A stretch of DNA of 64,000 bases from a virus. Where the stretch lies: positions 43,824 through 107,823 of the IMG/VR virus record IMGVR_UViG_3300006928_000001; one strand, written 5' to 3'. Positions 2,209-64,000 of this stretch are shown one piece after another. Numbering within the stretch: the stretch's first letter is position 1; each line of letters begins with the position of its first letter. The position numbers and the translations under genes were made by a program. The notes under the pieces are model-generated. The model was not told where the DNA came from, did no database searches, and saw nothing but the letters and a program-made list of their open reading frames with translations.

Positions 2209-3873
2209 CTAGCCGTAAATCGTTTCAGCAAGCCAATTTAGTAACGACAGAGCTACGCTTCGTTGTTTTCTATGAGCGATGACTACGGCTTCATCTGGAC
2301 CATTGTCAACTACCAAATCGTAGATGATAGCTTTGTGCTTCAAACCATGCCGGTGCACTCGATCTTCAGACTGTGATCTTGCGATCGTTCCAAGTGGCTG
2401 TGAATAGTACACTGCCGATTTGCTATGCTGCCAGTTCAACCCAGCACCAGCCACACCCGGGTGTGCGATTACGGTATGATATCTTCCTGCTCTCCAGTCC
2501 GATTGAATCATATCTCTTTGACGAGCGGGCGTAGGCCCATGAATAATCGCGACTCCTCTCTTCCCGAGTAGTTCAACTACTCGTTGATATTCAACCCGTG
2601 AAAAGTCTGTTGTTCCGTCTTCTTTGAGAGGTCCATACACTTGACCCCCAACACGAAGGGCGGTGTCTGGTTCTTCCCCAGCCGCGACAAGCGCAGCGGC
2701 GATGACTTCTCTGGACCTCGAGGCCCAAATGTGACGTGGCGCACGGTCACCGTGGGCGTCTTTGATTTCTTCGATAACATCTCGGAGGAGGGCAAGCTTT
2801 CCACTGTGGACAGGTCGCCCTTCAAGATATCCACCCGTAAGCTCAATGGTTCGAAGTCGTTCGATGAGAACATTCTCAGGGACGATTGCGTGCCCGTCGT
2901 CAAGAACGGCACGATCGTCTTCGATGAGATCGAGCATAAGCTTAGCAGCTGACGGCGGAAGATCAAAAGAGCGTTTGAAGTAAATTTTGTCAGGGAGGTC
3001 AAGACACTCGTCCTTACGCCTACGAACTGTGTATGGATGCATTGGGTCAAGTACTTCGTATTGAATGCGTTTTTGATTTACGCCAACTACGAATGATCTA
3101 GACACACTGAACTGTTTACCCTTACTCTCCATCGGGTCATGTAGCTGACCGTATCTATACTTGAACGCATCAAACGAACCTGGGGCACCGGCTGGAAATC
3201 TAGCTTTCCCGATTGTAATGATATCTGGTGGAAGTCTCTTCAAAACGTCTGGGCGTACAAGCTTCGTTAAACCCCAGAGTCTCATATGCTCCGGTCTACC
3301 AATTGGAGTAGCTGTGATACCAGCAGCTCCAATGCAGGCAGACGCAAAAGCTCTAGCTGCTACACCTTGCCCTGAATGAGATAGTGCAACGCCTTGTGCT
3401 TCATCCACGACGATGGCTATACGCCTACCCCTTGCATGTATCATCATAGGATGATCAGCTTTTACGATGTTTTTGCGTCGGTACTTAGTCACCAATAGAC
3501 TACGAAGGCCGGAGAACGTAGTTGCCATTACCGTAAGTTTGTGCTGTTCAGTTCTCAATCCCGACGTGATGACATCTTCAATCAAGTCGTTATCTGGTGG
3601 TCTACAGTCGATGAAGTTCACCAACCCTTCAGGCCACGTTCGCCCATCAAATGTTTCGCGCCAGTCTGGCATCGTCATACTTGGTAGCACCAAGACAACT
3701 TCGTCAATGACACCTCTAAGCCAGAGGGTTTGAAGCCACCAAGCTGTTGTAGCAGTCTTACCAGTACCCAGTTCGTTCCAGATGTTAACCCTAGAAAATC
3801 GAGCTAGTCTTTGAACATCTTCAGCTTGATGTTTAAGCGGAGACCATTCCGCTGGTAGCAACTGGTACGTCAC
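2209..3873 (-). CDS. SNF2-family DNA helicase/translocase
   Basis: The product has 554 residues and a full superfamily 2 motif set: Walker A GTGKT at 36-40, DEAQ (motif II) at 157-160, GITATP (motif III) at 185-190, and motif VI QSEDRVHRHG near 501-510. The spacing, and the arginine-rich motif VI of the SEDRxHRxG kind, are typical of SNF2-like ATPases that translocate on double-stranded DNA; phages use them in replication, recombination or anti-restriction. The GTG start overlaps the stop of the small membrane protein gene before it (GTGA). Family assignment is firm, the precise role is not known. Confidence 0.88.
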   Translation of the reverse strand: MTYQLLPAEWSPLKHQAEDVQRLARFSRVNIWNELGTGKTATTAWWLQTLWLRGVIDEVVLVLPSMTMPDWRETFDGRTWPEGLVNFIDCRPPDNDLIEDVITSGLRTEQHKLTVMATTFSGLRSLLVTKYRRKNIVKADHPMMIHARGRRIAIVVDEAQGVALSHSGQGVAARAFASACIGAAGITATPIGRPEHMRLWGLTKLVRPDVLKRLPPDIITIGKARFPAGAPGSFDAFKYRYGQLHDPMESKGKQFSVSRSFVVGVNQKRIQYEVLDPMHPYTVRRRKDECLDLPDKIYFKRSFDLPPSAAKLMLDLIEDDRAVLDDGHAIVPENVLIERLRTIELTGGYLEGRPVHSGKLALLRDVIEEIKDAHGDRAPRHIWASRSREVIAAALVAAGEEPDTALRVGGQVYGPLKEDGTTDFSRVEYQRVVELLGKRGVAIIHGPTPARQRDMIQSDWRAGRYHTVIAHPGVAGAGLNWQHSKSAVYYSQPLGTIARSQSEDRVHRHGLKHKAIIYDLVVDNGPDEAVVIAHRKQRSVALSLLNWLAETIYG

Positions 3874-4058
3874 AGCTTAATCACGTTCCCGTGTTCGTCG
3901 GTGATGACTTCAACTGTTTCAGACGATTGAAACACAGATGCCATACTGACAACCCAGGTCCCCAAAGCTATCACGAGACATAGTGTAGACGCTGCCTCGT
4001 GTGTGGGCGCCAAGTAACCAGTCAACACTACCAGTGATACAGGAAACAAGTGATGCAT
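3870..4058 (-). CDS. Small membrane protein
   Basis: This 62-residue protein has a hydrophobic N-terminal two thirds (about two short membrane segments, residues 2-42) and a polar tail. The open frame extends further upstream, but the ATG at 4058 directly follows the stop of the upstream gene and has an ideal GGAGG site that lies within that gene's last codons. Translational coupling is therefore likely. No family is recognised. Confidence 0.7.
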   Translation of the reverse strand: MHHLFPVSLVVLTGYLAPTHEAASTLCLVIALGTWVVSMASVFQSSETVEVITDEHGNVIKL

Positions 4059-4059
4059 T

Positions 4060-4314
4060 TTATCCTCCACAAACAAGAGCTTCACCAAGAGCGTCAGACA
4101 CATCGGTGTCGACTGCACCCTGAAGCTCCATAATCGGAATCCAGCGCCAGTCATCTGGCGGAGTCCCTGTAGAGTGCTGAATGACACGAACCGTGTTATA
4201 ATCGAATGACTCGATCACACTCGTGAACGACTCAACCTCTTCCACGGTAGGAATAGGGTCAGTAGTAGATGGCTTCGCCAGAACCTTCGTTCCACGAATT
4301 ACGATGGCAAGCAT
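4060..4314 (-). CDS. Hypothetical protein
   Basis: Acidic protein of 84 residues, first of a coupled pair with the small membrane protein. An AAGGGAG ribosome site precedes the ATG. No domain is recognised. Confidence 0.7.
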   Translation of the reverse strand: MLAIVIRGTKVLAKPSTTDPIPTVEEVESFTSVIESFDYNTVRVIQHSTGTPPDDWRWIPIMELQGAVDTDVSDALGEALVCGG

Positions 4315-4394
4315 TCTTGCTCCCTTAAGGTTTACAAGATACTTATACCACTGCCCTTAAGTGAGGACCATTCCGCAGAATCGTTTGTCTGCGC

Positions 4395-25698: not shown

Positions 25699-26355
25699 TT
25701 AGTCTGTGACTACAAGTCTTCCTGTAACACTCTCATAAATAAGATCCATCATCGTAGAATCGTAGGGGGACTCATCTGGAGTCATGTTTTGCTCGATGAG
25801 CAGGAATCGTTGTGCTGCCAGATAGGCATCCTCAGGCGTACCATCGTCACAGACGTATTCACCGGCTGAGGGGTGGCCTTCCGGGCACTTGATGTGCCGA
25901 GACCTCCATGGTGCCTTCGCGTGAGCTGCCTCATGGACAGTTGCGACACTCAACTGCTCAGGAGATGAGTATCTTGGTGAGCGAAACACCACACGTCGGC
26001 CGGAGTAGTAGATGGCTGCTTTGTGTGTTGCGCCTGGGTCATACTCAGGTGAGACTTCAACTTCGTCGAACTCAACCAGGCTGTCACCGTAGTAGTCTTG
26101 GTCTGCTACCAGGAGCATGTGCCATGTAGTGAGGAGGGCGTTGATGTCGTCTTCGTACGCGTCGTATGGTTGATTGTGTGAATCAATCTGCAGGTTAGCA
26201 TCTGCCGCGATGCTGTACGCGCAGTCTCCGGTTGGAGGGAGTGCTTCGAACGCGAGATGACGTTGATTTTCGCAAGAATCAAGCGTGGCACTGATGTCCA
26301 ACTGGTAGTCGCTGGAACAGGCTGCGAATACTAGCAAAGTTGTGATACTGCGCAT
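25699..26355 (-). CDS. Lipoprotein with zinc-protease signature (HExxH)
   Basis: The 218-residue product begins MRSITTLLVFAACSS, a short signal peptide with lipobox FAAC and lipidation at Cys13, so the protein should be anchored in a membrane after export. HEAAH at residues 141-145 is an HExxH zinc-binding helix, followed by RSRHIKCPEGHPSAGEYVC, where His or Glu could be a third ligand and two Cys a disulfide. A secreted or membrane-anchored metallopeptidase is likely. Phage lipoproteins often act in exclusion of other phages or in changing the cell surface (family knowledge, not shown here). It has an AAAGGAAATG leader. Confidence 0.65.
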   Translation of the reverse strand: MRSITTLLVFAACSSDYQLDISATLDSCENQRHLAFEALPPTGDCAYSIAADANLQIDSHNQPYDAYEDDINALLTTWHMLLVADQDYYGDSLVEFDEVEVSPEYDPGATHKAAIYYSGRRVVFRSPRYSSPEQLSVATVHEAAHAKAPWRSRHIKCPEGHPSAGEYVCDDGTPEDAYLAAQRFLLIEQNMTPDESPYDSTMMDLIYESVTGRLVVTD

Positions 26356-26379
26356 GACATTTCCTTTCTGTTTAAAGAG

Positions 26380-26703
26380 TTATACCTTCTTTGCGAGCAG
26401 CCCGTCATCACCCCAAGACAGGACGAGACTAGCTTTTTCGAGCCTTCTGGAACTGAATGTATCCTTCTTGACATTTCTCAGTTGTCCGGGTAGGTGGTCT
26501 AGAAAGTCACACGCTTCTTCCAAGCTAAAGTGATGATAGTTTCTTAGGGCCGTAATTCCGTCAGCCCTATCGGCACAGTCGATGACTGTTACCGTGGACG
26601 CCATGTTGTTGGTGGTGATAAGCACGTCGGTCAGAGCTAGAGCAGAAGCCAGGACACGTCGTAGGTCCTTCAAAGCGAGCAGTGGGTCGTGCACTTCCAT
26701 CAT
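26380..26703 (-). CDS. Hypothetical protein, weakly L7/L12 C-domain-like
   Basis: The 107-residue product starts at the ATG at 26703 (GGAGAA site). The open frame above it is low-complexity and non-coding. A pattern from about residue 40 (VTVIDCADRADGITALRN then SLEEACDFLDHLPGQLRNV) recalls the ribosomal L7/L12 C-terminal domain, which has the order strand, helix, helix and is found in some phage proteins. The likeness is weak and not verified. Confidence 0.45.
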   Translation of the reverse strand: MMEVHDPLLALKDLRRVLASALALTDVLITTNNMASTVTVIDCADRADGITALRNYHHFSLEEACDFLDHLPGQLRNVKKDTFSSRRLEKASLVLSWGDDGLLAKKV

Positions 26704-26758
26704 TTCTCCAATTGGTGGTTGGTTGGGGTGTAGCCCAGGGGTCAGATTGGTCCATTGG

Positions 26759-26782
26759 TGGCCAGATTGGGGTGATCTGGCC
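26759..26782. repeat. Perfect 8-bp hairpin
   Basis: GGCCAGAT-TGGGGTG-ATCTGGCC followed by ATTTTAGG. It lies just upstream of the 26380-26703 gene on the minus strand. It may be an operator or a terminator on the plus strand. Confidence 0.4.
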
Positions 26783-26788
26783 ATTTTA

Positions 26789-26815
26789 GGGGGTTGGGGT
26801 GGGGTAGGTTGGGGG
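26789..26815 (+). repeat. G-quadruplex motif
   Basis: Four G-runs of four to five bases with loops TT, T and TAGGTT lie on the plus strand. This fits the usual rule for intramolecular G-quadruplexes. It is next to the candidate origin. Confidence 0.45.
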
Positions 26816-27000
26816 TTGGAAGTTTCGCAGGGCTCAGAAATGGACTGGTAAAAAGCAGGAGGTTTGCTGAGTGTTTTTCTTAAGTAAAGCAAGAGGGTTT
26901 GCTGGGTGAGCTGTAAGAGAAGCACGGGCCGTAGGTTCGTCTGGCAAGTTGTCTGCTAACAGGTTGTCTGCTGTTCGACTAATGGGTTGTTACCTGTACC

Positions 27001-27294
27001 ATACACACGCGGACGGCTAGACAGCCCCAGCAAGCTTTTTCTCTTTCTCTTGGTCTCTCTTATTTAATCACTCAGAGTATTTAAGTTAAATCTGATCAGA
27101 TGTCTGATATAGAATACAGTAACAGTATTATGTAATTGACCTCGAGAACAGTATCAGAACAGGTATCAGATATATAAGGTTGAATACTGTTACAGAAGTC
27201 GTAGTCTGAAGTGATACTTTCTGACCTTGTCTCGAGAAAGAGCAAGAGAAAGAGAAAGAGCTGGTTGGGGCTGTCTAGCCGTCCGCGTGTGTAT
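27001..27294. repeat. Long inverted repeat around an AT-rich iteron-like core
   Basis: The first 29 bases (27001-27029) are perfectly complementary to 27266-27294, and the match continues with few mismatches for about 30 more through a pyrimidine tract (TTTCTCTTTCTCTTG). The enclosed 175 bases are AT-rich. They contain AATAC-AGTAACA-GTATT, an inverted copy AATACTGTTAC (27183), the palindrome TCTGATCAGA, and GTATCAGA twice. This architecture suits an origin of replication or a strong regulatory site. Confidence 0.5.
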
Positions 27295-27391
27295 GAGGTT
27301 GGCGCCACAGACGGCAGAGTTGTTAATATCAGCATTCTGGGCCAGTTTCGGCCGTGTGGAACACCTAAACCCCAACCCTTGCCGTTGTGGT

Positions 27392-27772
27392 TTAGAAATC
27401 ACCCTCGATAATCCGGTGTCGGGCGATCTTTTTGGCATCATCAACATTGACGACGTCGTACTCGAAATCACCGTAGAAGTGCTGCCACTTCCATTCGTCG
27501 GTGTCGCGGTAGTGAATAACCACTACTCCACGGCGTTCGAAGTTGTCACTGAACGTCGCAGCCTCTCGGCCATCGCGTGGGCCTACCTTGATATGGACTC
27601 GGCTTATCGACTCTTCGAACGTGGAGACCAATTCGATATCATGGAGTGCCCTAGCGACAGCCTGGTGGACAGACTTTTCGTCGTCCGTAAGGGACTCTAG
27701 AGCAGCCTTTCGCTTGGCTTCGAGAGCCTTTTGAGTGGAGTCGATTTGGTTGGCGATGAATTCGTCGAACAT
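27392..27772 (-). CDS. Hypothetical protein
   Basis: The 126-residue product has a helical, charged N-terminal half and a beta-rich C-terminal half (HYRDTDEWKWQHFYGDFEYD). It is not recognised. It has an AAAAGAGGTAAACC leader, and its stop lies about 100 bases from the inverted repeat at 27.29 kb. Confidence 0.65.
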   Translation of the reverse strand: MFDEFIANQIDSTQKALEAKRKAALESLTDDEKSVHQAVARALHDIELVSTFEESISRVHIKVGPRDGREAATFSDNFERRGVVVIHYRDTDEWKWQHFYGDFEYDVVNVDDAKKIARHRIIEGDF

Positions 27773-27818
27773 GGTTTACCTCTTTTGATTAGACTAATCA
27801 GTTTAATTATGCTATCTT

Positions 27819-27840
27819 GTGGACAAGTTTTGGCCTACGA
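27819..27840. repeat. Direct repeat, copy 1
   Basis: GTGGACAAGTTTTGGCCTAC plus GA. It differs at three positions from the copy at 27927-27948, 108 bases away. Confidence 0.5.
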
Positions 27841-27926
27841 CTGGGTAGATTCGTTGGTATTCGTGAGTGGTCGAGTGGGGTCGATTGGTAGACTGGCTGG
27901 TCTTTTTATGAATTCGGATGGGCTTC

Positions 27927-27948
27927 GTGGACACTTTTTGGTCTACGA
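27927..27948. repeat. Direct repeat, copy 2
   Basis: GTGGACACTTTTTGGTCTAC plus GA; see copy 1 at 27819. Confidence 0.5.
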
Positions 27949-28110
27949 GGTGAGTTCTCGTTGTATTAAACCAGGCGGTCTATTAATGAGGTTCATAAGG
28001 TAGGCGCGCGGGCGATTTTGCGACTTGTCGTGCGGCCCTCGATCAACCATGCCCCAACCTCGCGCATCGTTTTTCGCACTCTCCACAGTCCAATTTCGCA
28101 CTCAACACAA

Positions 28111-28311
28111 TTACGCCTTGCCTCGGCGCGCCCTCCGATTGTGCGGCGGACGCCAGGCCGGCACCTCTTCGGGCCACCCCACCACGCACATCGCGAACAT
28201 CAACGCGTCAGGCCTCAGCTGAGGATGCTTGAGCTTCGCACGGTACATGTGGAGCACCCGACGGCTCTGACTCTCGCGAGAAAGAGCGTCGGTGATGATG
28301 ACATCAATCAC
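28111..28311 (-). CDS. Small basic protein
   Basis: The 66-residue product is strongly basic, ending in HNRRARRGKA. A GTG start overlaps the upstream stop (GTGA), which is the main support. The base composition is GC-rich compared with the genes around 20-27 kb. It is not recognised and could be a chance frame. Confidence 0.4.
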   Translation of the reverse strand: MIDVIITDALSRESQSRRVLHMYRAKLKHPQLRPDALMFAMCVVGWPEEVPAWRPPHNRRARRGKA

Positions 28312-28601
28312 TGCGACACCACAAAGTGCACCGTGGTGGGCACCCCACAAACATCGACGTTACTGTGCAGGTTGCCATGCGGAATAACCTTGGCGTATCG
28401 CTCGTGGTGACAGGACTCGAAGTCGAATGCCTCACCCACACCAGCCACGGCCAGAGCAAGGTTATGCTCGTCTCGCGGCCAGTGGACACGCATTCCGACA
28501 ACGCGGCCCTTTTCGTCCTCAGCAAGATCGAACTCAACGGTCAGCTCGATGCAGTAGTAAAAACCGAGGGCGATGAATGCGTTTTCAACTGGGTGAGTCA
28601 T
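28308..28601 (-). CDS. Hypothetical protein
   Basis: The 97-residue product is beta-rich with several His and Cys residues near its end. It is not recognised. The leader AGGAGGTAAAC is identical to that of the kinase gene at 28930-29394, and a TATACT box lies 17 bases above the ATG. Confidence 0.65.
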   Translation of the reverse strand: MTHPVENAFIALGFYYCIELTVEFDLAEDEKGRVVGMRVHWPRDEHNLALAVAGVGEAFDFESCHHERYAKVIPHGNLHSNVDVCGVPTTVHFVVSQ

Positions 28602-28617
28602 GTTTACCTCCTATGAT

Positions 28618-28623
28618 AGTATA
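28618..28623 (-). promoter_or_regulatory. Candidate -10 box TATACT
   Basis: The minus strand reads GGTTATACTATCATAGGAGGTAAAC then ATG in two parts; the TATACT is at the place expected for a promoter with a very short leader. A related GTTACACTACCGTAGGAGG lies above the kinase gene. Confidence 0.4.
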
Positions 28624-28661
28624 ACCCGTACGAGCTACGCTACCAGAGTTTTTTCGAAAAT

Positions 28662-28904
28662 CTATTCGAATGAACCGTGCATCACGGTAATGTACCACAC
28701 ACCGTCACCGTGCTTGACAAATCGAACCACACCGTTTGGGATGGTGGCTTCGTACGTCGAACAGTCAGCACGAATGCGTTCGAGCTTTGTGTAGTAACAC
28801 CGCTCAACATCAGCCTGAATGCCCGCAGCCTCTTCGGCTGAGAAGATCATCGTGAGACTGAGTTTGACACCGCGCTCAACAGACAGGATGGCTTGCCAGA
28901 ACAT
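28662..28904 (-). CDS. Hypothetical protein
   Basis: The 80-residue product starts at the ATG at 28904, which has a perfect AAGGAGG site. The open frame extends upstream over the kinase gene in another frame, but this is a shadow. It has a helical centre and a beta C-terminus. It is not recognised. Confidence 0.6.
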   Translation of the reverse strand: MFWQAILSVERGVKLSLTMIFSAEEAAGIQADVERCYYTKLERIRADCSTYEATIPNGVVRFVKHGDGVWYITVMHGSFE

Positions 28905-28929
28905 TGGTCTGTTCCTCCTTGAAAGAGTT

Positions 28930-29394
28930 CTACTTGCGCTCCCACGGCGGGCGGGTGTCACCACCAACCCAGTCGTGCTCGTACCGGTCCCGCATCCGAG
29001 CGATGGCCTCCACCGGCACACCGTGCGCGTTCCTGGCGGCCAGCTCTTCGTTGGACAGTCCACCGTCGAACATGTCGAGGACGTGCACCCGAGCACCGAG
29101 CTCTTCGGCGAGCTCCAGATAGGGCTGCATCTCCCAACGCTGGGTGAAGGTGTTCGAGACGATCGCCTTGCCATGACTAACAAGCGCCTGACGGGTCTTA
29201 CCAAGGCACCAGGCGTGCGCCTCGGGCAGCTTCTTCGGGTCGAAGTTGTACTCGCCAGTATCGCGGTCGACGAAGTACATGTCGGCCTCGACCATTTCGT
29301 GACCGAGCATCCCGGCCACGGTCGTCTTACCGACGCCCGAGAGCCCGCGGACGAGAATCAAGACCTTCTTACCAGAAAACTCAGTGTTGTCCAT
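28930..29394 (-). CDS. P-loop kinase (AAA_33 / zeta-toxin-like group)
   Basis: The 154-residue protein has Walker A GLSGVGKTT at residues 17-25, a following VEADMYFVDR acidic strand, and an AHAWCL..ALVSHGKAIVSNTFTQ segment. This is the layout of small predicted kinases related to polynucleotide kinase, T4 Pnk's kinase part and NEDD4BP2-like ATPases. It probably phosphorylates a nucleic acid end or a small molecule; the substrate cannot be read from sequence. The leader is AGGAGGTAAAC. Confidence 0.8.
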   Translation of the reverse strand: MDNTEFSGKKVLILVRGLSGVGKTTVAGMLGHEMVEADMYFVDRDTGEYNFDPKKLPEAHAWCLGKTRQALVSHGKAIVSNTFTQRWEMQPYLELAEELGARVHVLDMFDGGLSNEELAARNAHGVPVEAIARMRDRYEHDWVGGDTRPPWERK

Positions 29395-29410
29395 GTTTAC
29401 CTCCTACGGT

Positions 29411-29416
29411 AGTGTA
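29411..29416 (-). promoter_or_regulatory. Candidate -10 box TACACT
   Basis: The minus strand reads GTTACACTACCGTAGGAGG just before the kinase gene. It parallels GTTATACTATCATAGGAGG before the 28308-28601 gene, so the pair likely shares one promoter design. Confidence 0.35.
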
Positions 29417-29457
29417 ACACACTTTTCGAAGCTGTGTACAAACTTGTCGTGCTTTTT

Positions 29458-30276
29458 CTACAGAGGACGCACGTCCACATCATCACCGGTGATGCACGAC
29501 AGCCGTTCGCCATCATTTCCATGAAGCAAAACGTACATCTCCGTGTTGTACACATAGACCTCACGGTCTTCCTTCGTGTACCCACAGAGATCGAACACCC
29601 TCTTGCAGCCAGGGTCAGGATGGACCATGACTTCGGTGATGATCATCCGCTTGTTGCGGTGAATGACCACGTGGACCTCATCATCAATCCAGATCGGGTC
29701 GTCGTCCTCAAGGCACCCAGGGTCCACGAGCACCTTGGTCAGGTTACCCTGGTACACCTCGAGGAATTCTCGAAGCATCTCCCACTCAGTTGAGCCTGGC
29801 CCTTCGATCGGGTCGTCGTCAGACTGGACGTCCTCGGCGGCCTTCAGGCAGGACAGGGCCTCGTCGACATGCTTGAGCGAGTGGATCGCGTAGTCCGCGT
29901 AGTCGAACTCCTTGATGCCAACGTGGAGACCATTCAGCTCAGGCACGAGCTCTCCACCCATCGGAGTGCCCGATCCATCGCGTGGTCCCTCGGCTCTGTA
30001 TCCGAGCGTCTCGTCACTGGTGTTGGAGATGAAACCATCATCCCACTCAACCTCAGCGACGTAGGAGACGAACGACTCATCATCGATGATGTCGACTTCG
30101 ACACAGTCGATCAGCTTGCCAACCAGGTGTGGGTGCGATTCGCACTTCGTAACCCTCAGTTGGTACCAGGTAACACCCGCGGCGGTCGCTCCGTTCACTT
30201 CGACCTCCAGGCCGATCAGCCAGGAGCCGCGAACGTTGATGTCGGTCTTGTGATGAAATGCTCTGTTTTGTGTCAT
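29458..30276 (-). CDS. Hypothetical protein
   Basis: The 272-residue acidic product has an N-terminal beta-rich part and a helical centre (HSLKHVDEALSCLKAAED) before more strands. No domain is recognised. The leader is AGAGAGGTAAC. It sits in a more GC-rich stretch (28-30.7 kb). Confidence 0.65.
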   Translation of the reverse strand: MTQNRAFHHKTDINVRGSWLIGLEVEVNGATAAGVTWYQLRVTKCESHPHLVGKLIDCVEVDIIDDESFVSYVAEVEWDDGFISNTSDETLGYRAEGPRDGSGTPMGGELVPELNGLHVGIKEFDYADYAIHSLKHVDEALSCLKAAEDVQSDDDPIEGPGSTEWEMLREFLEVYQGNLTKVLVDPGCLEDDDPIWIDDEVHVVIHRNKRMIITEVMVHPDPGCKRVFDLCGYTKEDREVYVYNTEMYVLLHGNDGERLSCITGDDVDVRPL

Positions 30277-31935: not shown

Positions 31936-31967
31936 ATTTACCTCCAATTTGGGTTGGTTTAGAAACC

Positions 31968-32015
31968 CAAATAGCCCTTGGATTAATCATATGACTAATC
32001 CAAGGGCTATTTGGG
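31968..32015 (-). terminator. 19-bp perfect hairpin
   Basis: CCAAATAGCCCTTGGATTA (31968-31986) and its complement (31997-32015) enclose a 10-base loop. It separates the 32048-32452 gene from the next one. GGGGCC-CTAA-GGCCCC (32013-32028) is directly beside it. Confidence 0.6.
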
Positions 32016-32047
32016 GCCCTAAGGCCCCACCAGATAACCAATCTGGT

Positions 32048-32452: not shown

Positions 32453-32487
32453 ATTTACCTCATTCTCTATTGGGGTTGGATTACCCC

Positions 32488-32524
32488 TATCAGTACCTAA
32501 CCGTTTGGTGGTTAGGTACTGATA
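32488..32524. repeat. 15-bp perfect inverted repeat
   Basis: TATCAGTACCTAACC (32488-32502) and GGTTAGGTACTGATA (32510-32524) with a 7-base loop. GGGGT-TGGATT-ACCCC lies just before (32472-32487). They sit between two genes on the minus strand. Confidence 0.6.
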
Positions 32525-32555
32525 CCGGTAATCCATCCGGTAGCTATCTACTAGG

Positions 32556-32750
32556 TTAGTTCCAATAAATAGCGTTAGCTGCGTATACCCTATCGGTATA
32601 CTCACGTTGCTTACGGGTTAGGTGCCTAGTATGGTGATAGCTATTGGTTAGATTAAAGAACCAACCAATAAGTCTAAAGGAAGTGGAAGCTAGAAGGCTA
32701 GCCAAGGTGACTAGCCCAATAGCAGTAACGGTGATAAGGAAGCCTCTCAC
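32556..32750 (-). CDS. Small membrane protein
   Basis: The 64-residue product has an N-terminal membrane segment (residues 4-33) and a basic C-terminal tail. GTG start behind GGTAAG, directly after the stop of the 27-residue peptide gene. It is probably coupled to that gene. Confidence 0.5.
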   Translation of the reverse strand: MRGFLITVTAIGLVTLASLLASTSFRLIGWFFNLTNSYHHTRHLTRKQREYTDRVYAANAIYWN

Positions 32751-32751
32751 C

Positions 32752-32835
32752 TTACCAACCTACCCAATACCGGGTAGACCGGTAAGAGAGATAGAGACCG
32801 ACCAACAGGACCAACATGGACATAAGACACAACAT
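32752..32835 (-). CDS. Small membrane peptide (27 aa)
   Basis: The ATG at 32835 has an ideal TGGAGGTAAAG leader. The peptide is almost all hydrophobic up to residue 17 (MLCLMSMLVLLVGLYLSYR) with a basic end. It is one of several tiny membrane proteins in this block. At this size a chance frame cannot be excluded. Confidence 0.45.
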   Translation of the reverse strand: MLCLMSMLVLLVGLYLSYRSTRYWVGW

Positions 32836-33234
32836 CTTCTTTACCTCCATTAGAACCATCGGTTAGCTAACCGTCCGATACAAGAGGACGGTTCGGTTAG
32901 TAACCGATAGCTCTAAGGGAGGGGCCACCCTAAAGGTGGCCAATGCCCAATACATATAGAGCTTTCAAAGAAGATGACCGCCGGGGCGTCCATCGCTCGG
33001 ATACCCCCTCTGGGGCCTCACCCATGCTACCCAAAAAATATTTTCATGATGTTTTCCAAACTGGTTTTCTAATTAATTAAAAAGAAAAAAATCTATTTCA
33101 AACTCACTTTTCCATTTCGGACCATCGACCCTCTCAATCCTCGTGCCGTCACACCGCACCCCAACGAACCTACGAACACCCTCCGCCTAAGCTATGAGGG
33201 TTACTATCCTTCCATCATGCAAGGAGTGCATAAT
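32836..33234. other. Divergence region between the two transcription units
   Basis: No gene is seen in about 400 bases. It holds the cruciform at 32858-32908, the hairpin GGCCACC/GGTGGCC (32923-32941), and an AT-rich tract near 33035-33105. A GAGGGTTACTAT element near 33196 may be the promoter for the plus-strand genes. Confidence 0.5.
32858..32908. repeat. Cruciform-forming inverted repeat
   Basis: AACCGTCC (32869-32876) pairs with GGACGGTT (32886-32893). Each arm carries its own palindrome: GGTTAGCTAACC on the left and GGTTAGTAACC on the right, with ATCGGTT/AACCGAT at the ends. Confidence 0.5.
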
Positions 33235-34664: not shown

Positions 34665-34901
34665 GTGCAGTCAGTTACAATACAATTTGAATACGAGACA
34701 CGTATCCTCACTGCCGAAGGCATCCAGGAAATGGAAAACGAGTCAGGATGGTCACTTGTGTCAGCCAGTGTGCTTGACCCAGATAAACATGAGCAATTCA
34801 TCAAATGGGTTTGTCTTGTAAGACGTCCCATTGTACGTAACACTTTGACGCTTGACGCAATTCGTGAAATGAAGAGGAGTCACTCCGATGAACAGTCGTA
34901 A
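34665..34901 (+). CDS. Hypothetical protein
   Basis: The 78-residue product starts with GTG behind GGAGGAG. The helix TAEGIQEMENES and a Trp-containing strand follow. It is not recognised, and its end overlaps the methyltransferase start. Confidence 0.6.
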   Translation: MQSVTIQFEYETRILTAEGIQEMENESGWSLVSASVLDPDKHEQFIKWVCLVRRPIVRNTLTLDAIREMKRSHSDEQS

Positions 34902-36690
34902 CTTGAAGCCCAGCGACCAGCTGGAGATGATCGCGGATAACATCCGTACCGGCAATAAGGCCGGTGAAATCACAGCCCTTGGAGCCTGCGTGTTCGCTGG
35001 TGGGTTTAGCTTCGGCTTGGAAGAAGCTGGGTTGAAGGTGTGCGGGCATTTTGAGCTCACTGACCTTGAGCTAGGTGCAGAGACTTCGGCAGCGAAGTGG
35101 CCTGTTCTAGTGGCTCCGCTGGAGAAGGGGTACGAGCCGAATAGTGCGTTTCCTACTGACCCCACGACCTGGCAGAGTGCTATTACGTACCTGAAGGATA
35201 ACGACGCCATCCCTCGGGTGATGTTCTGCAATCCCCCATGTGCTGCTTTCGCCAAGAATGGTGCTCGTGGTGGCATGGATGATAACGACAACATGTGTTA
35301 CAGTCGTTACGTCACCTACCAGCTATGTATGAAGATTCAGCCGGAAGTGTGGATGTGGGAGCTCGTGCCTGGCATCTTCGAGGATACCAAGGATGGTGGC
35401 CGTGACTTCCTCGACAAGATGGCTGAGGAGGCTCAGGCCAACGGCTATGAGGTTCACTACTTCCTGACCTCCGCTGCTCACCACGGTGGGTACCAGAATC
35501 GTCCTCGGTTCCACTTTGTGGCCTCCAAGGTAGGTCTGGACTGGGCTGGTACCTACAAGGAGGATGGAGATGAGCATAAGGGGTGGAAAACGCTAGGAGA
35601 ATGCCTTGATAAGCTCGAGCAATACATCGCAGAGAACGGCCCAGTGCCGAATCATGAAGGTGAACGCATCTCTGGAGGGGCACTCCTGGACATTATCCCG
35701 TTTTGCCCGCCCGGTGGCTACCTCCGGGACGTCAAAGACGAACTCATGGAGAAGCATTATCGGCCCCGTGGACAGCCGTGGAATGGTCAGAGTCGTGCCG
35801 GTGTGACACAGTTGCGCGGTCGTCGAGACCGTACTAGTCCAGTCATCATCGGTGGTCACACAGTTATTCATCCTGAGAAGAACCGTTTCCTTACGATCCG
35901 TGAATCCGCAGCTGTTATGGGTTTCCCGTACGACTACCAGTTCAGTCACGGTAGCAAGGGCTACGCAGAAGTCGGCAAGGGACTCTGTACGCACAACGCT
36001 AGGTTCCTTGGTCTGACGGTGAAGACTGGCATCGAGCTTCAGGAAGCTGGTAACGGCATTACGGTCGACACGACCAAGGTGCACGTCGTTGACTGGCGTG
36101 GCCAGGTCAAGGTTCCTAGTCAGTCCTCTACTGACGAGGAGCGAATCGAGTGGTTCAAGAAGCGTCACCCTGAGTTGGACCCGCAGCTTGGTTTGGCTCG
36201 GCCTAAGCGTGGGCCTGGTCGCCCGAAGGGTGGTAGTTCGCGACGTGGTCGTCGTGGCCGCGGAGGTCCTAAGACTGTTCTCATTATCGGTGACAACGAA
36301 GAGCTCCAGGAAACCTTGGAGAAGATGGAGTTTAACGTCGAGATGGATGACCTCGACAACATCGAGATGGACGACCTTCCTGAGGTTCTCGGTAAGGCGG
36401 GGCGCTCTCACTGCATTGTCGTGAGGGGGCCTTCCTGGGATACACAGGAGTTTATGGTTCTCGGTGCGTGTCTGGCTCAAGGGACGCGACTGGTTCTGTA
36501 CAACTTTGCAGGACTTCCGGAAGGAGTCCCGGATCATGCGTCTATTACCGTGTCTGGTAAGAACAAGACGACGGCTGTGGCACCAATTATCGCGCAGGCT
36601 CTTGGTATGAGTGCCGAGGATGTGCTTAGCAAGATGATGGAAGGGCAGGATGCTGCATCTCTCCTGGCGAAGCTGTTGGAGGCGTCGTAA
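34888..36690 (+). CDS. Cytosine-C5 methyltransferase-like protein fused to AT-hook and deoxyribosyltransferase-like domain
   Basis: The 600-residue protein shows C5-methyltransferase motifs in order: I (VFAGGFSFGLEEAG, 35-48), IV (NPPCAAF with catalytic-type Cys118), VI (WELVPG, Glu158), VIII (QNRPRF, 203-208), IX (RFLTIRESAAVMGFP, 333-347) and X (GKGLCTHNARFLG, 363-375). It is divergent: the usual PCQ is PCA and ENV is ELV. Residues 441-449 (RGPGRPKGG) form an AT-hook next to an RG-rich stretch. Residues 463-600 resemble the Rossmann-like nucleoside deoxyribosyltransferase fold (VRGPSWDTQEFMVLGACLAQ). DNA base modification is likely; the fusion is unusual. Confidence 0.75.
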   Translation: MNSRNLKPSDQLEMIADNIRTGNKAGEITALGACVFAGGFSFGLEEAGLKVCGHFELTDLELGAETSAAKWPVLVAPLEKGYEPNSAFPTDPTTWQSAITYLKDNDAIPRVMFCNPPCAAFAKNGARGGMDDNDNMCYSRYVTYQLCMKIQPEVWMWELVPGIFEDTKDGGRDFLDKMAEEAQANGYEVHYFLTSAAHHGGYQNRPRFHFVASKVGLDWAGTYKEDGDEHKGWKTLGECLDKLEQYIAENGPVPNHEGERISGGALLDIIPFCPPGGYLRDVKDELMEKHYRPRGQPWNGQSRAGVTQLRGRRDRTSPVIIGGHTVIHPEKNRFLTIRESAAVMGFPYDYQFSHGSKGYAEVGKGLCTHNARFLGLTVKTGIELQEAGNGITVDTTKVHVVDWRGQVKVPSQSSTDEERIEWFKKRHPELDPQLGLARPKRGPGRPKGGSSRRGRRGRGGPKTVLIIGDNEELQETLEKMEFNVEMDDLDNIEMDDLPEVLGKAGRSHCIVVRGPSWDTQEFMVLGACLAQGTRLVLYNFAGLPEGVPDHASITVSGKNKTTAVAPIIAQALGMSAEDVLSKMMEGQDAASLLAKLLEAS

Positions 36691-37136
36691 TGGCTGACTT
36701 TTGTCATGACTTCGACCCTGGTGGTCTCGGTGGGTATCACCCGTTAGGCGATTTTTCTTGGGCTCTTGAAAAGTGGGGATCGAAGCTAAAGGTGGACGAA
36801 TTTGTTAGACTTGGTCTTTGCGAAGGTCATGGATGCGGGGTTGCCCTAGAGAGGCACGAAGATGGTTTAACATTAGTCCACTACGAGTTTTCCGACTTCC
36901 CTCTTACAGATGGTGAAGAAGTTCCTCCACCAAAGAAGATTCCTGAGTCGTTTACAGTGACTCCTGAAGTCATACTAGAGGTTGAAATACAGAATTTTAC
37001 TCAGCAGATGCTAGTTCAGCAAATTAGTGAGGGGCACTTCGACGAAAATCTTGATCACGTACTAAAGGTGGCGGATAAGTTCGAGCGGTATGAAGTTGTT
37101 GAGGCTGTTCATTCGCGTCAGGAGAAAATTCAATGA
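36690..37136 (+). CDS. Hypothetical protein
   Basis: The 148-residue acidic product has a CEGHGCG motif near residue 44. The C-terminal half is helical. It is not recognised. The start overlaps the methyltransferase stop (TAATG). Confidence 0.65.
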   Translation: MADFCHDFDPGGLGGYHPLGDFSWALEKWGSKLKVDEFVRLGLCEGHGCGVALERHEDGLTLVHYEFSDFPLTDGEEVPPPKKIPESFTVTPEVILEVEIQNFTQQMLVQQISEGHFDENLDHVLKVADKFERYEVVEAVHSRQEKIQ

Positions 37137-37435
37137 GTTCTGAAGAAGAAACCAAGACCACTGAAATTCAGCTCGACCCTGAACGAGTTCAGTATCTTGC
37201 TACTAAGGTCATGGAACTGCTGGAAGAAGAAGGCGCTAAGAACGAAGAACTGATGGTCGTCCTGCCGATTGTCGCGTCTTCTGTCATTCTCAACTTTACT
37301 GCGGACTATCAGTGCGCCGTTGGTTCTGCTGCTAGTACGTTCATGCAAAAAGTGGACCATTTTGTCATGGTTTCCATCCAGGATGCACTTGAGAAGGGCA
37401 CTGCTGACCTTGTGGAACCTAAGTCTGATGGTTAA
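37133..37435 (+). CDS. Hypothetical protein
   Basis: The 100-residue product is acidic and helical with a hydrophobic centre (LMVVLPIVASSVILNF, about residues 40-55). Not recognised. It overlaps both neighbours by a few bases. Confidence 0.6.
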   Translation: MSSEEETKTTEIQLDPERVQYLATKVMELLEEEGAKNEELMVVLPIVASSVILNFTADYQCAVGSAASTFMQKVDHFVMVSIQDALEKGTADLVEPKSDG

Positions 37436-42715: not shown

Positions 42716-42943
42716 ATGTTCATTATGTTTACTGCTAACGGCTTTGGTGCTGTTCAACTAGACGGAGCTATTGGTGATCTTTCTTGGGAACCCAACCAAG
42801 ACTTTGATGATGACGACAAGAACGGGCGTAAACCTCGTGGTGACGCTATTCAGTACGGCTCTGATTCTGGCGAGAGTCGTCGTCGGAAGCGTAATCAGCG
42901 GCGTAACAACCGTATGCTTGGGCGAGGAATGGTTCTAGTCTGA
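42716..42943 (+). CDS. Small basic protein
   Basis: The 75-residue product has an acidic centre and a very basic C-terminus (SRRRKRNQRRNNRMLGRG). It directly precedes the 136-residue gene with a one-base overlap. No family is recognised; a role in DNA or capsid contact is possible. Confidence 0.55.
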   Translation: MFIMFTANGFGAVQLDGAIGDLSWEPNQDFDDDDKNGRKPRGDAIQYGSDSGESRRRKRNQRRNNRMLGRGMVLV

Positions 42944-43353
42944 TGGTGTACCGTGCTATTGAAAAGCCTAAGCCTCCTGAGAATCCAAAAGTTCGATTGA
43001 GTAGGTTTAAGCGTGATCATGTTAGAATTATCGAGGTTCTTAGATGGTTGCGCCGCCATAATGGAATGGCACATATCGATACCAACGATTTTTTTAGGCA
43101 CATGGCCTTTCGCGGCATGGTTGACCCATTTGAAGGGATGATTGGAGGCATTGAACGCCCACTCAGCTCTACGAATAAGACTAGAGCGGTGTTCAACAGA
43201 GTCAAGACTCTTATGCTAGATTTGGGTCTAGCAGAAAAAGCCCCATCTAAGAAGGCAGATCGTATCAATCACAAGTTGATCATGACTCATGACGGTGCCG
43301 ATACCCTCAGGGACTGGGAGAACGAAGATGCTAGAGGCATCTACGTGCCATGA
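42943..43353 (+). CDS. Putative winged-helix-like protein
   Basis: The 136-residue basic product has helices RIIEVLRWLRRHNG and RAVFNRVKTLMLDLGLA, a pattern like a winged helix. Its site just before the head genes could fit a small terminase-type or regulatory protein; this is only a guess. A hairpin lies over its stop. Confidence 0.45.
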   Translation: MVYRAIEKPKPPENPKVRLSRFKRDHVRIIEVLRWLRRHNGMAHIDTNDFFRHMAFRGMVDPFEGMIGGIERPLSSTNKTRAVFNRVKTLMLDLGLAEKAPSKKADRINHKLIMTHDGADTLRDWENEDARGIYVP

Positions 43354-43375
43354 AGTTCGAACTGTAGCGAACTTC
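43352..43375 (+). terminator. 8-bp hairpin after the pre-head genes
   Basis: GAAGTTCG-AACTGTAG-CGAACTTC overlaps the stop of the 42943-43353 gene. No U-run follows, so it may be a processing or weak termination site between two gene groups. Confidence 0.4.
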
Positions 43376-43449
43376 GCAGTACCCTTTCGGTATGGACGCA
43401 ACCATCATCAAGAGGTAAACTGTCTAGGTACGAAGTCGGAGCGCTGGTC

Positions 43450-63417: not shown

Positions 63418-64000
63418 CAGTCGCGTCAGCGAATGTCAAAGTTTGCGAAGAATCAAGTAGACTGCTGTAATCAACACCACACTCTCCGCTTGGGCATTCC
63501 AACGCGGAGAGTACTTGCATGGGCTTGCTTCGGTCACGGTACACAGTAGTTCCTGGAATACCCATCTTCCAAGACAATCGGTATGCATGCTCAACGTCTT
63601 CGATAGACGCGTCATTCGGCATGTTGATAGTTTTGCTCACGCTCATGCATGTAAACGCACAGACTGCGGCCTGCATACGAACGTGCTCAACAGCAGAAAG
63701 TTTGTTAGCCGTAATCATCCACGGCTTACCTCGGTGCTCATCTGTGTGCCAAAGGTCATGGTAGGTGATGTCCTTTCCAGCGCTATCAGTACGCTTGATG
63801 CCCCAATCAAATGGAGGCTCCAGTCCACCAGAAATCGTTACTGGTGTATCAGCCCCAATAGCACGGGTCATTGTCCATCCAGCGATCATAGAGATCGTTC
63901 CAGTTGGGGCGACCGAAGTTACGCACGTATTGGTTGCGTATTCACCAGCTTGAGTTCGCTTAATGAGCGAATTCCAACGGTCTAGATGACTCTGAGGACA
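63410..64000 (-). CDS. nrdJ: Adenosylcobalamin-dependent (class II) ribonucleotide reductase, C-terminal part
   Basis: About 196 residues are visible; the gene runs off the right edge. TSVAPTGTIS, EHVRMQAAVCAFTCMSVSKT then INMPNDASIEDVEHAYRLSW, and the tail region ECPSGECGVD are typical of class II reductases that make deoxyribonucleotides with vitamin B12. The C-terminal CPSGEC is the reductant cysteine pair. The enzyme needs no oxygen-dependent radical and suits phages of aquatic hosts. It marks nucleotide supply for replication. Confidence 0.85.
   Translation of the reverse strand, partial: CPQSHLDRWNSLIKRTQAGEYATNTCVTSVAPTGTISMIAGWTMTRAIGADTPVTISGGLEPPFDWGIKRTDSAGKDITYHDLWHTDEHRGKPWMITANKLSAVEHVRMQAAVCAFTCMSVSKTINMPNDASIEDVEHAYRLSWKMGIPGTTVYRDRSKPMQVLSALECPSGECGVDYSSLLDSSQTLTFADATAK

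Follow-up and report, generated by a model that had tools for sequence, protein, structure and literature searches.

A gene-free gap in the genome of a tailed phage holds a long inverted repeat whose 61-nt arms enclose an AT-rich core of 174 nt. We propose, giving the proposal about an even chance of being right, that this element is an inverted-repeat replication origin that works like the stem-loop of plasmid pRN1 or like oriS of herpes simplex virus. This reading is favored because of the anatomy of the element, its uniqueness, and the comparison with other phages that encode a Toprim-MCM primase-helicase. The window (the whole stretch of DNA analyzed, 64,000 nt) comprises bases 43824 to 107823 of a virus record of 107,823 bases, and the features in and around the element are listed by window position in Table 1. 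Start sites of replication have been mapped in few large phages, and the open-licence literature yielded none for phages that encode a Toprim-MCM primase-helicase.

Table 1. Window positions of the inverted-repeat element, its parts, and its neighbors
Feature	Position	Strand	Remarks
Left neighbor gene	26380-26700	-	106 aa; starts at 26700; no assigned function
Gene-free gap	26701-27391		691 bp; flanked by two minus-strand genes
G-quadruplex motif	26789-26815	+	Four runs of at least 4 G; motif search
Direct repeats	26861-26972	+	Two 13-nt pairs, between the G-quadruplex motif and the left arm
Left arm	27000-27060	+	27000-27029 perfect; inner part pyrimidine-rich
AT-rich core	27061-27234		Iteron-like words; repeat counts, AT content
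GAATACAGTAACAGTATT	27112-27129	+	Inverted partner of 27183-27200
AGAACAGGTATC	27145-27170	+	12-mer; 2.2 tandem copies in the core
AATACTGTTACAGAAGTC (plus-strand letters)	27183-27200	-	Inverted partner of 27112-27129
GAGAAA tract	27234-27260	+	4.5 copies; polypurine
Right arm	27235-27295	-	27266-27295 perfect; inner part polypurine GAGAAA repeats
Right neighbor gene	27392-27772	-	126 aa; ends at 27392; Phage_HCP match below threshold, not relied on

The record starts and ends with an identical 123 bases (L005:1-123 and window 63878-64000), an exact terminal direct repeat, and the join of its ends is spanned by a relative (L010). The map is therefore circular and the genome, of 107.7 kb, essentially complete, although the record is classed among linear ones. 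Leftwards of about 32.7 kb, genes occupy the minus strand until close to the beginning of the record; from 33.2 kb onwards they occupy the plus strand. The phage encodes a sheath protein, a terminase, and both thymidylate synthases. ThyX and ThyA, together with a dCMP deaminase and two C5-cytosine methylases (L005 to L006 and window 34888-36690), make modified bases possible.

The arms pair at 56 of 61 positions, with the outermost 30 perfect. An earlier note on this DNA had described an inverted repeat of about 60 bases, perfectly complementary over its outer 29 and enclosing 175 bases; the repeat is real and lies far beyond what shuffling yields, with the perfect stretch corrected to 30 bases and the core to 174. 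In a search for perfect inverted repeats that allowed at most 400 nt between the arms, the longest in the window was 30 nt, compared with 11 to 14 nt in 10 dinucleotide shuffles. On a common ungapped inverted-repeat score (spacers of 40 to 400 nt allowed), the element reached 46, the runner-up in the genome 16, and shuffles 12 to 13. With five mismatches, the arms do not look like a palindrome generated by amplification or assembly. Folded as single-stranded DNA, the element has an energy of -79 kcal/mol (z = -15.7).

Terminal inverted repeats around a noncoding, AT-rich middle, 296 bp in all and free of genes, also fit the form of a MITE-like mobile-element relic or of an invertible segment. 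We consider this very unlikely, as the target-site duplication is at most 2 bp for any nearby end, which is not what marks a MITE or an insertion sequence, and as the further copies typical of MITEs were not found: the element is single copy in the whole record, and the exact arm words are absent from IMG/VR and from the GTDB species genomes. Scans of viral and genome contig collections found no relative that covers the site of the element. Relatives in the terminase region comprise two fragments from other metagenomes (L008 and L009, 100% identity) and L010 (63%); two further sequences (L011 and L012) have only a kinase gene in common with the phage.

The surroundings of the element bear out the earlier description of a region free of genes and adjoining a G-quadruplex and direct repeats. 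No credible gene was found between 26701 and 27391, where the open reading frames overlap the arms and lack support. The G-quadruplex motif is the sole one in the window when both strands are searched, and the direct repeats are real but short (pairs at 26861/26896 and 26945/26960). The 700-bp segment at the gap holds 49 inverted words, the genome maximum, with 18 in the next segment, and 5 of the 10 genome sites of GGTTGGGG fall in the 691-bp gap. A second gene-free block (27773-28307; 535 bp; 54% G+C) lies on the far side of the right neighbor gene and has no repeat excess. Farther on, a 27-nt block with a TATACT-like hexamer and a strong ribosome-binding site is repeated at 28599-28625 and 29392-29418, each copy preceding a minus-strand gene.

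The core has a G+C content of 33%, and AT content peaks, for the whole genome, in the 170-bp segment from 27036 (68%; next, 63%). Its short words recur more often than in shuffled sequence: the counts at k = 6 and k = 7 were reached by none of 2,000 shuffles, and P was 0.0035 at k = 8. Three of the four copies of AACAGTAT in the window, and three of the seven of TATCAGA, are in the core. The full 8- to 9-mers named earlier, GTATCAGA and AACAGTATT, occur twice each.

These properties can be set against known origin systems. In the Sulfolobus plasmid pRN1, a stem-loop is required for replication and functions even after relocation; it is about 100 nt long, with a 21-nt stem and a 58-nt loop, and lies just 3′ of a gene, and an origin of this type has also been proposed for Bordetella phage BIP-1 (PMC4234260). 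The earlier remark that such a layout is known from no standard phage origin was therefore too strong. Like pRN1, the phage encodes a primase-helicase fusion and carries, in noncoding DNA, a long inverted repeat whose loop is large; the stem and loop are longer than in pRN1 (61 and 174 nt), and more than 26 kb separate the element from the primase gene of the phage, whereas that of pRN1 adjoins its replication gene. The pRN1 protein joins an AEP primase, an SF3 helicase, and a winged helix, and that of the phage joins Toprim and MCM domains. With a protein of this different kind, the element falls outside the pRN1 class and at most works like a pRN1 origin.

Iteron origins are bound by the AAA+ Rep helicases SaPI Rep and SCCmec Cch2, and Cch2 binding needs direct repeats, with inverted repeats being dispensable (PMC7581432); phage P4 alpha is another initiator helicase with an iteron origin (cited in PMC4234260). 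Like these systems, the phage has short repeats and encodes its own, here putative, initiator helicase. The core is AT-rich like the melting region of such origins, and its repeats (AACAGTAT and TATCAGA, three copies each, and the 12-mer, 2.2 copies) are candidate binding sites; the origins of those systems, however, adjoin the gene, and the main feature here is the long inverted arms. In herpes simplex oriS, inverted initiator boxes surround an AT-rich spacer (PMC12543377). This likeness is an analogy of working alone; oriS has short boxes, belongs to a eukaryotic virus with an SF2 initiator, and is unrelated to the element.

The phage has its own replication set, consisting of a family A DNA polymerase, a helicase, an NAD ligase, and the fusion of Toprim with an MCM AAA+ domain. 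The fusion protein (950 aa; L007:1676-4528, minus strand; window -2147 to 705) matches Pfam Toprim_2 and MCM, and its sequence matches in the PDB are MCM. The genome also encodes, at L006:2123-4747 (minus strand), an 874-aa topoisomerase VIII-like protein in which a single chain carries both a GHKL ATPase domain and a Toprim domain of the Topo VI A type. GC skew at 4-fold sites does not change sign at the element, and the cumulative skew has its minimum near window position 23.9k and is almost flat up to 34k. The absence of a skew switch, the distance to the phage's own primase gene, and the small, related comparison set count against the origin reading.

To compare the element with those of other phages, we used tblastn with the Toprim-MCM protein, which found matches of 26 to 30% identity in Bacillus, Weizmannia, Microbacterium, Arthrobacter, and other phages. 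Eight public Toprim-MCM phages (L013 to L019 and L027) were compared with seven controls that have a family A polymerase (L020 to L026). In BSP7, Anakin, and Youna2 (3/8), the top inverted repeat of the roughly 50 kb searched (scores of 17, 20, and 25, respectively) lies in the gene-free gap that immediately precedes the primase gene or the HTH gene in front of it; a score of 17 was reached by just 2 of 180 shuffles. In the Manatee Spring phage, a repeat of 60 nt lies near the strand switch, away from the primase gene. Sparcetus carries inverted iteron arrays in the gap upstream of its primase gene, which the word count detects and the gapless score misses. Wollypog has direct repeats and no inverted excess, BboS-125 has no inverted repeat above shuffles, and that of SV21 is below the threshold. 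Among the controls, LP-037 scores 17, and an AT gap rich in inverted words adjoins the primase gene of VpKK5.

The level of 17 is thus attained by 4 of 8 Toprim-MCM phages and 1 of 7 controls, which is weak evidence by itself; had the count been 5 of 8, P would still be 0.08. The comparison set is small, and its phages are related (two host lineages). That the repeat immediately precedes the primase gene, or its HTH gene, in 3 of 8 is a stronger point than the counts, and it rests on two lineages. Long repeats near primase genes are recurrent and neither universal nor, given the VpKK5 gap, specific to MCM. The gaps of BSP7, Youna2, and Krampusvirus (Anakin and Sparcetus) resemble the element in having inverted repeats or iteron arrays in gene-free DNA. 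Those of BSP7, Youna2, and Krampusvirus are also lower in G+C than their genomes and accompany a related Toprim-MCM protein; they differ in adjoining the primase gene, and no sequence in common with the element was seen. In Krampusvirus, inverted CCCACAATC / GATTGTGGGG-like arrays lie directly upstream of the primase gene (L015, 25569-25678; L019, 26355-26500). In Wollypog (L016), two gene-free gaps (26604-27034 and 42940-43414) have similar repeats and GAA/CTT tracts, and one of them is upstream of the primase gene.

The same comparison bears on the main rival, a two-sided transcription-control element, which we regard as possible but doubtful. Here the arms and core repeats would be operators of a phage regulator, and promoters in or beside the core would feed the leftward operon that begins at 26700 and perhaps an antisense transcript. 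The element does lie upstream of a minus-strand gene, and the repeats of BSP7 and Youna2 enclose, as read by eye, a TTGAC...TATAAT-like promoter before the HTH and primase genes; it is this promoter-like sequence that makes regulation the chief competitor. Usual operators are much shorter than 61-nt arms, which counts against this reading, as does a promoter search of 26300-29600 that returned one match where 2.3 are expected by chance, the sigma factors of the host not being known. The earlier note had left the choice between an origin and a two-sided regulatory element; it named the right rival, and of these two candidate readings the origin is the better supported.

An RNA element is a further possibility, and one that we judge quite unlikely. 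Both neighbor genes are on the minus strand, so the element may be transcribed, and leftward transcripts from the gene at 27392-27772 would then form a 61-bp hairpin serving as a processing site, a barrier, or a stabilizer. The predicted RNA fold is strong (-134 kcal/mol; z = -14), and a hairpin is made possible by other leader palindromes of the genome: long, near-perfect palindromes at 31959-32022 and 32474-32538 lie just upstream of minus-strand start codons and may be mRNA leader hairpins. Several observations point the other way. A G-U pair is kept at only one of the five arm differences in minus-strand RNA and at two of five in plus-strand RNA, the core folded alone as DNA is no more structured than shuffles, and the arms have no terminator-like site and no U-run, unlike an intrinsic terminator, in which a U-run follows a G+C-rich stem. 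No Rfam family was matched at its gathering score; sub-threshold matches to miRNA precursors were rejected, as they probably just reflect the long hairpin. In Weizmannia phage Youna2 (L017), two elements (3709-4372 and 36702-37185) have four arms that share the 23-bp TTGGAAAGGAGTGTAAAGTTCAA, and one arm carries two uncompensated changes in it. Since these arms conserve sequence rather than pairing, they are more likely to be DNA-binding sites than to fold as RNA.

If the element is an origin, its two oppositely oriented arms would be bound by an initiator, in all likelihood the Toprim-MCM primase-helicase of the phage or a protein that partners it. Melting of the AT-rich core would follow, assisted by proteins at its repeats and perhaps by extrusion of a cruciform; two helicase rings would then load, primers would be made, and two forks would presumably depart. 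The origin reading would offer a short, testable stretch, with BSP7 (Bacillus subtilis) and Krampusvirus (Microbacterium foliorum) as cultured stand-ins. More speculatively, and in our view unlikely, start sites of one kind may be common to Toprim-MCM phages, with two inverted arms around an AT-rich core onto which opposed rings of the MCM-type fusion protein load themselves. This would be the counterpart in bacterial viruses of the MCM double hexamer, with no separate loader needed, and the window would hold the longest example of such a start site, detached from the primase gene.

Two other regions were considered as start sites. One, rich in direct repeats and located downstream of the primase gene (window -3772 to -3072), was rejected because its repeats, with a period of 15 bp, lie inside the end of a 376-aa gene. 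The strand-switch gap at 32606-33216, where inverted words are not above shuffles, contains the most AT-rich 100 bp of the genome (33018-33117; 74%) and may be a candidate origin or promoter region.
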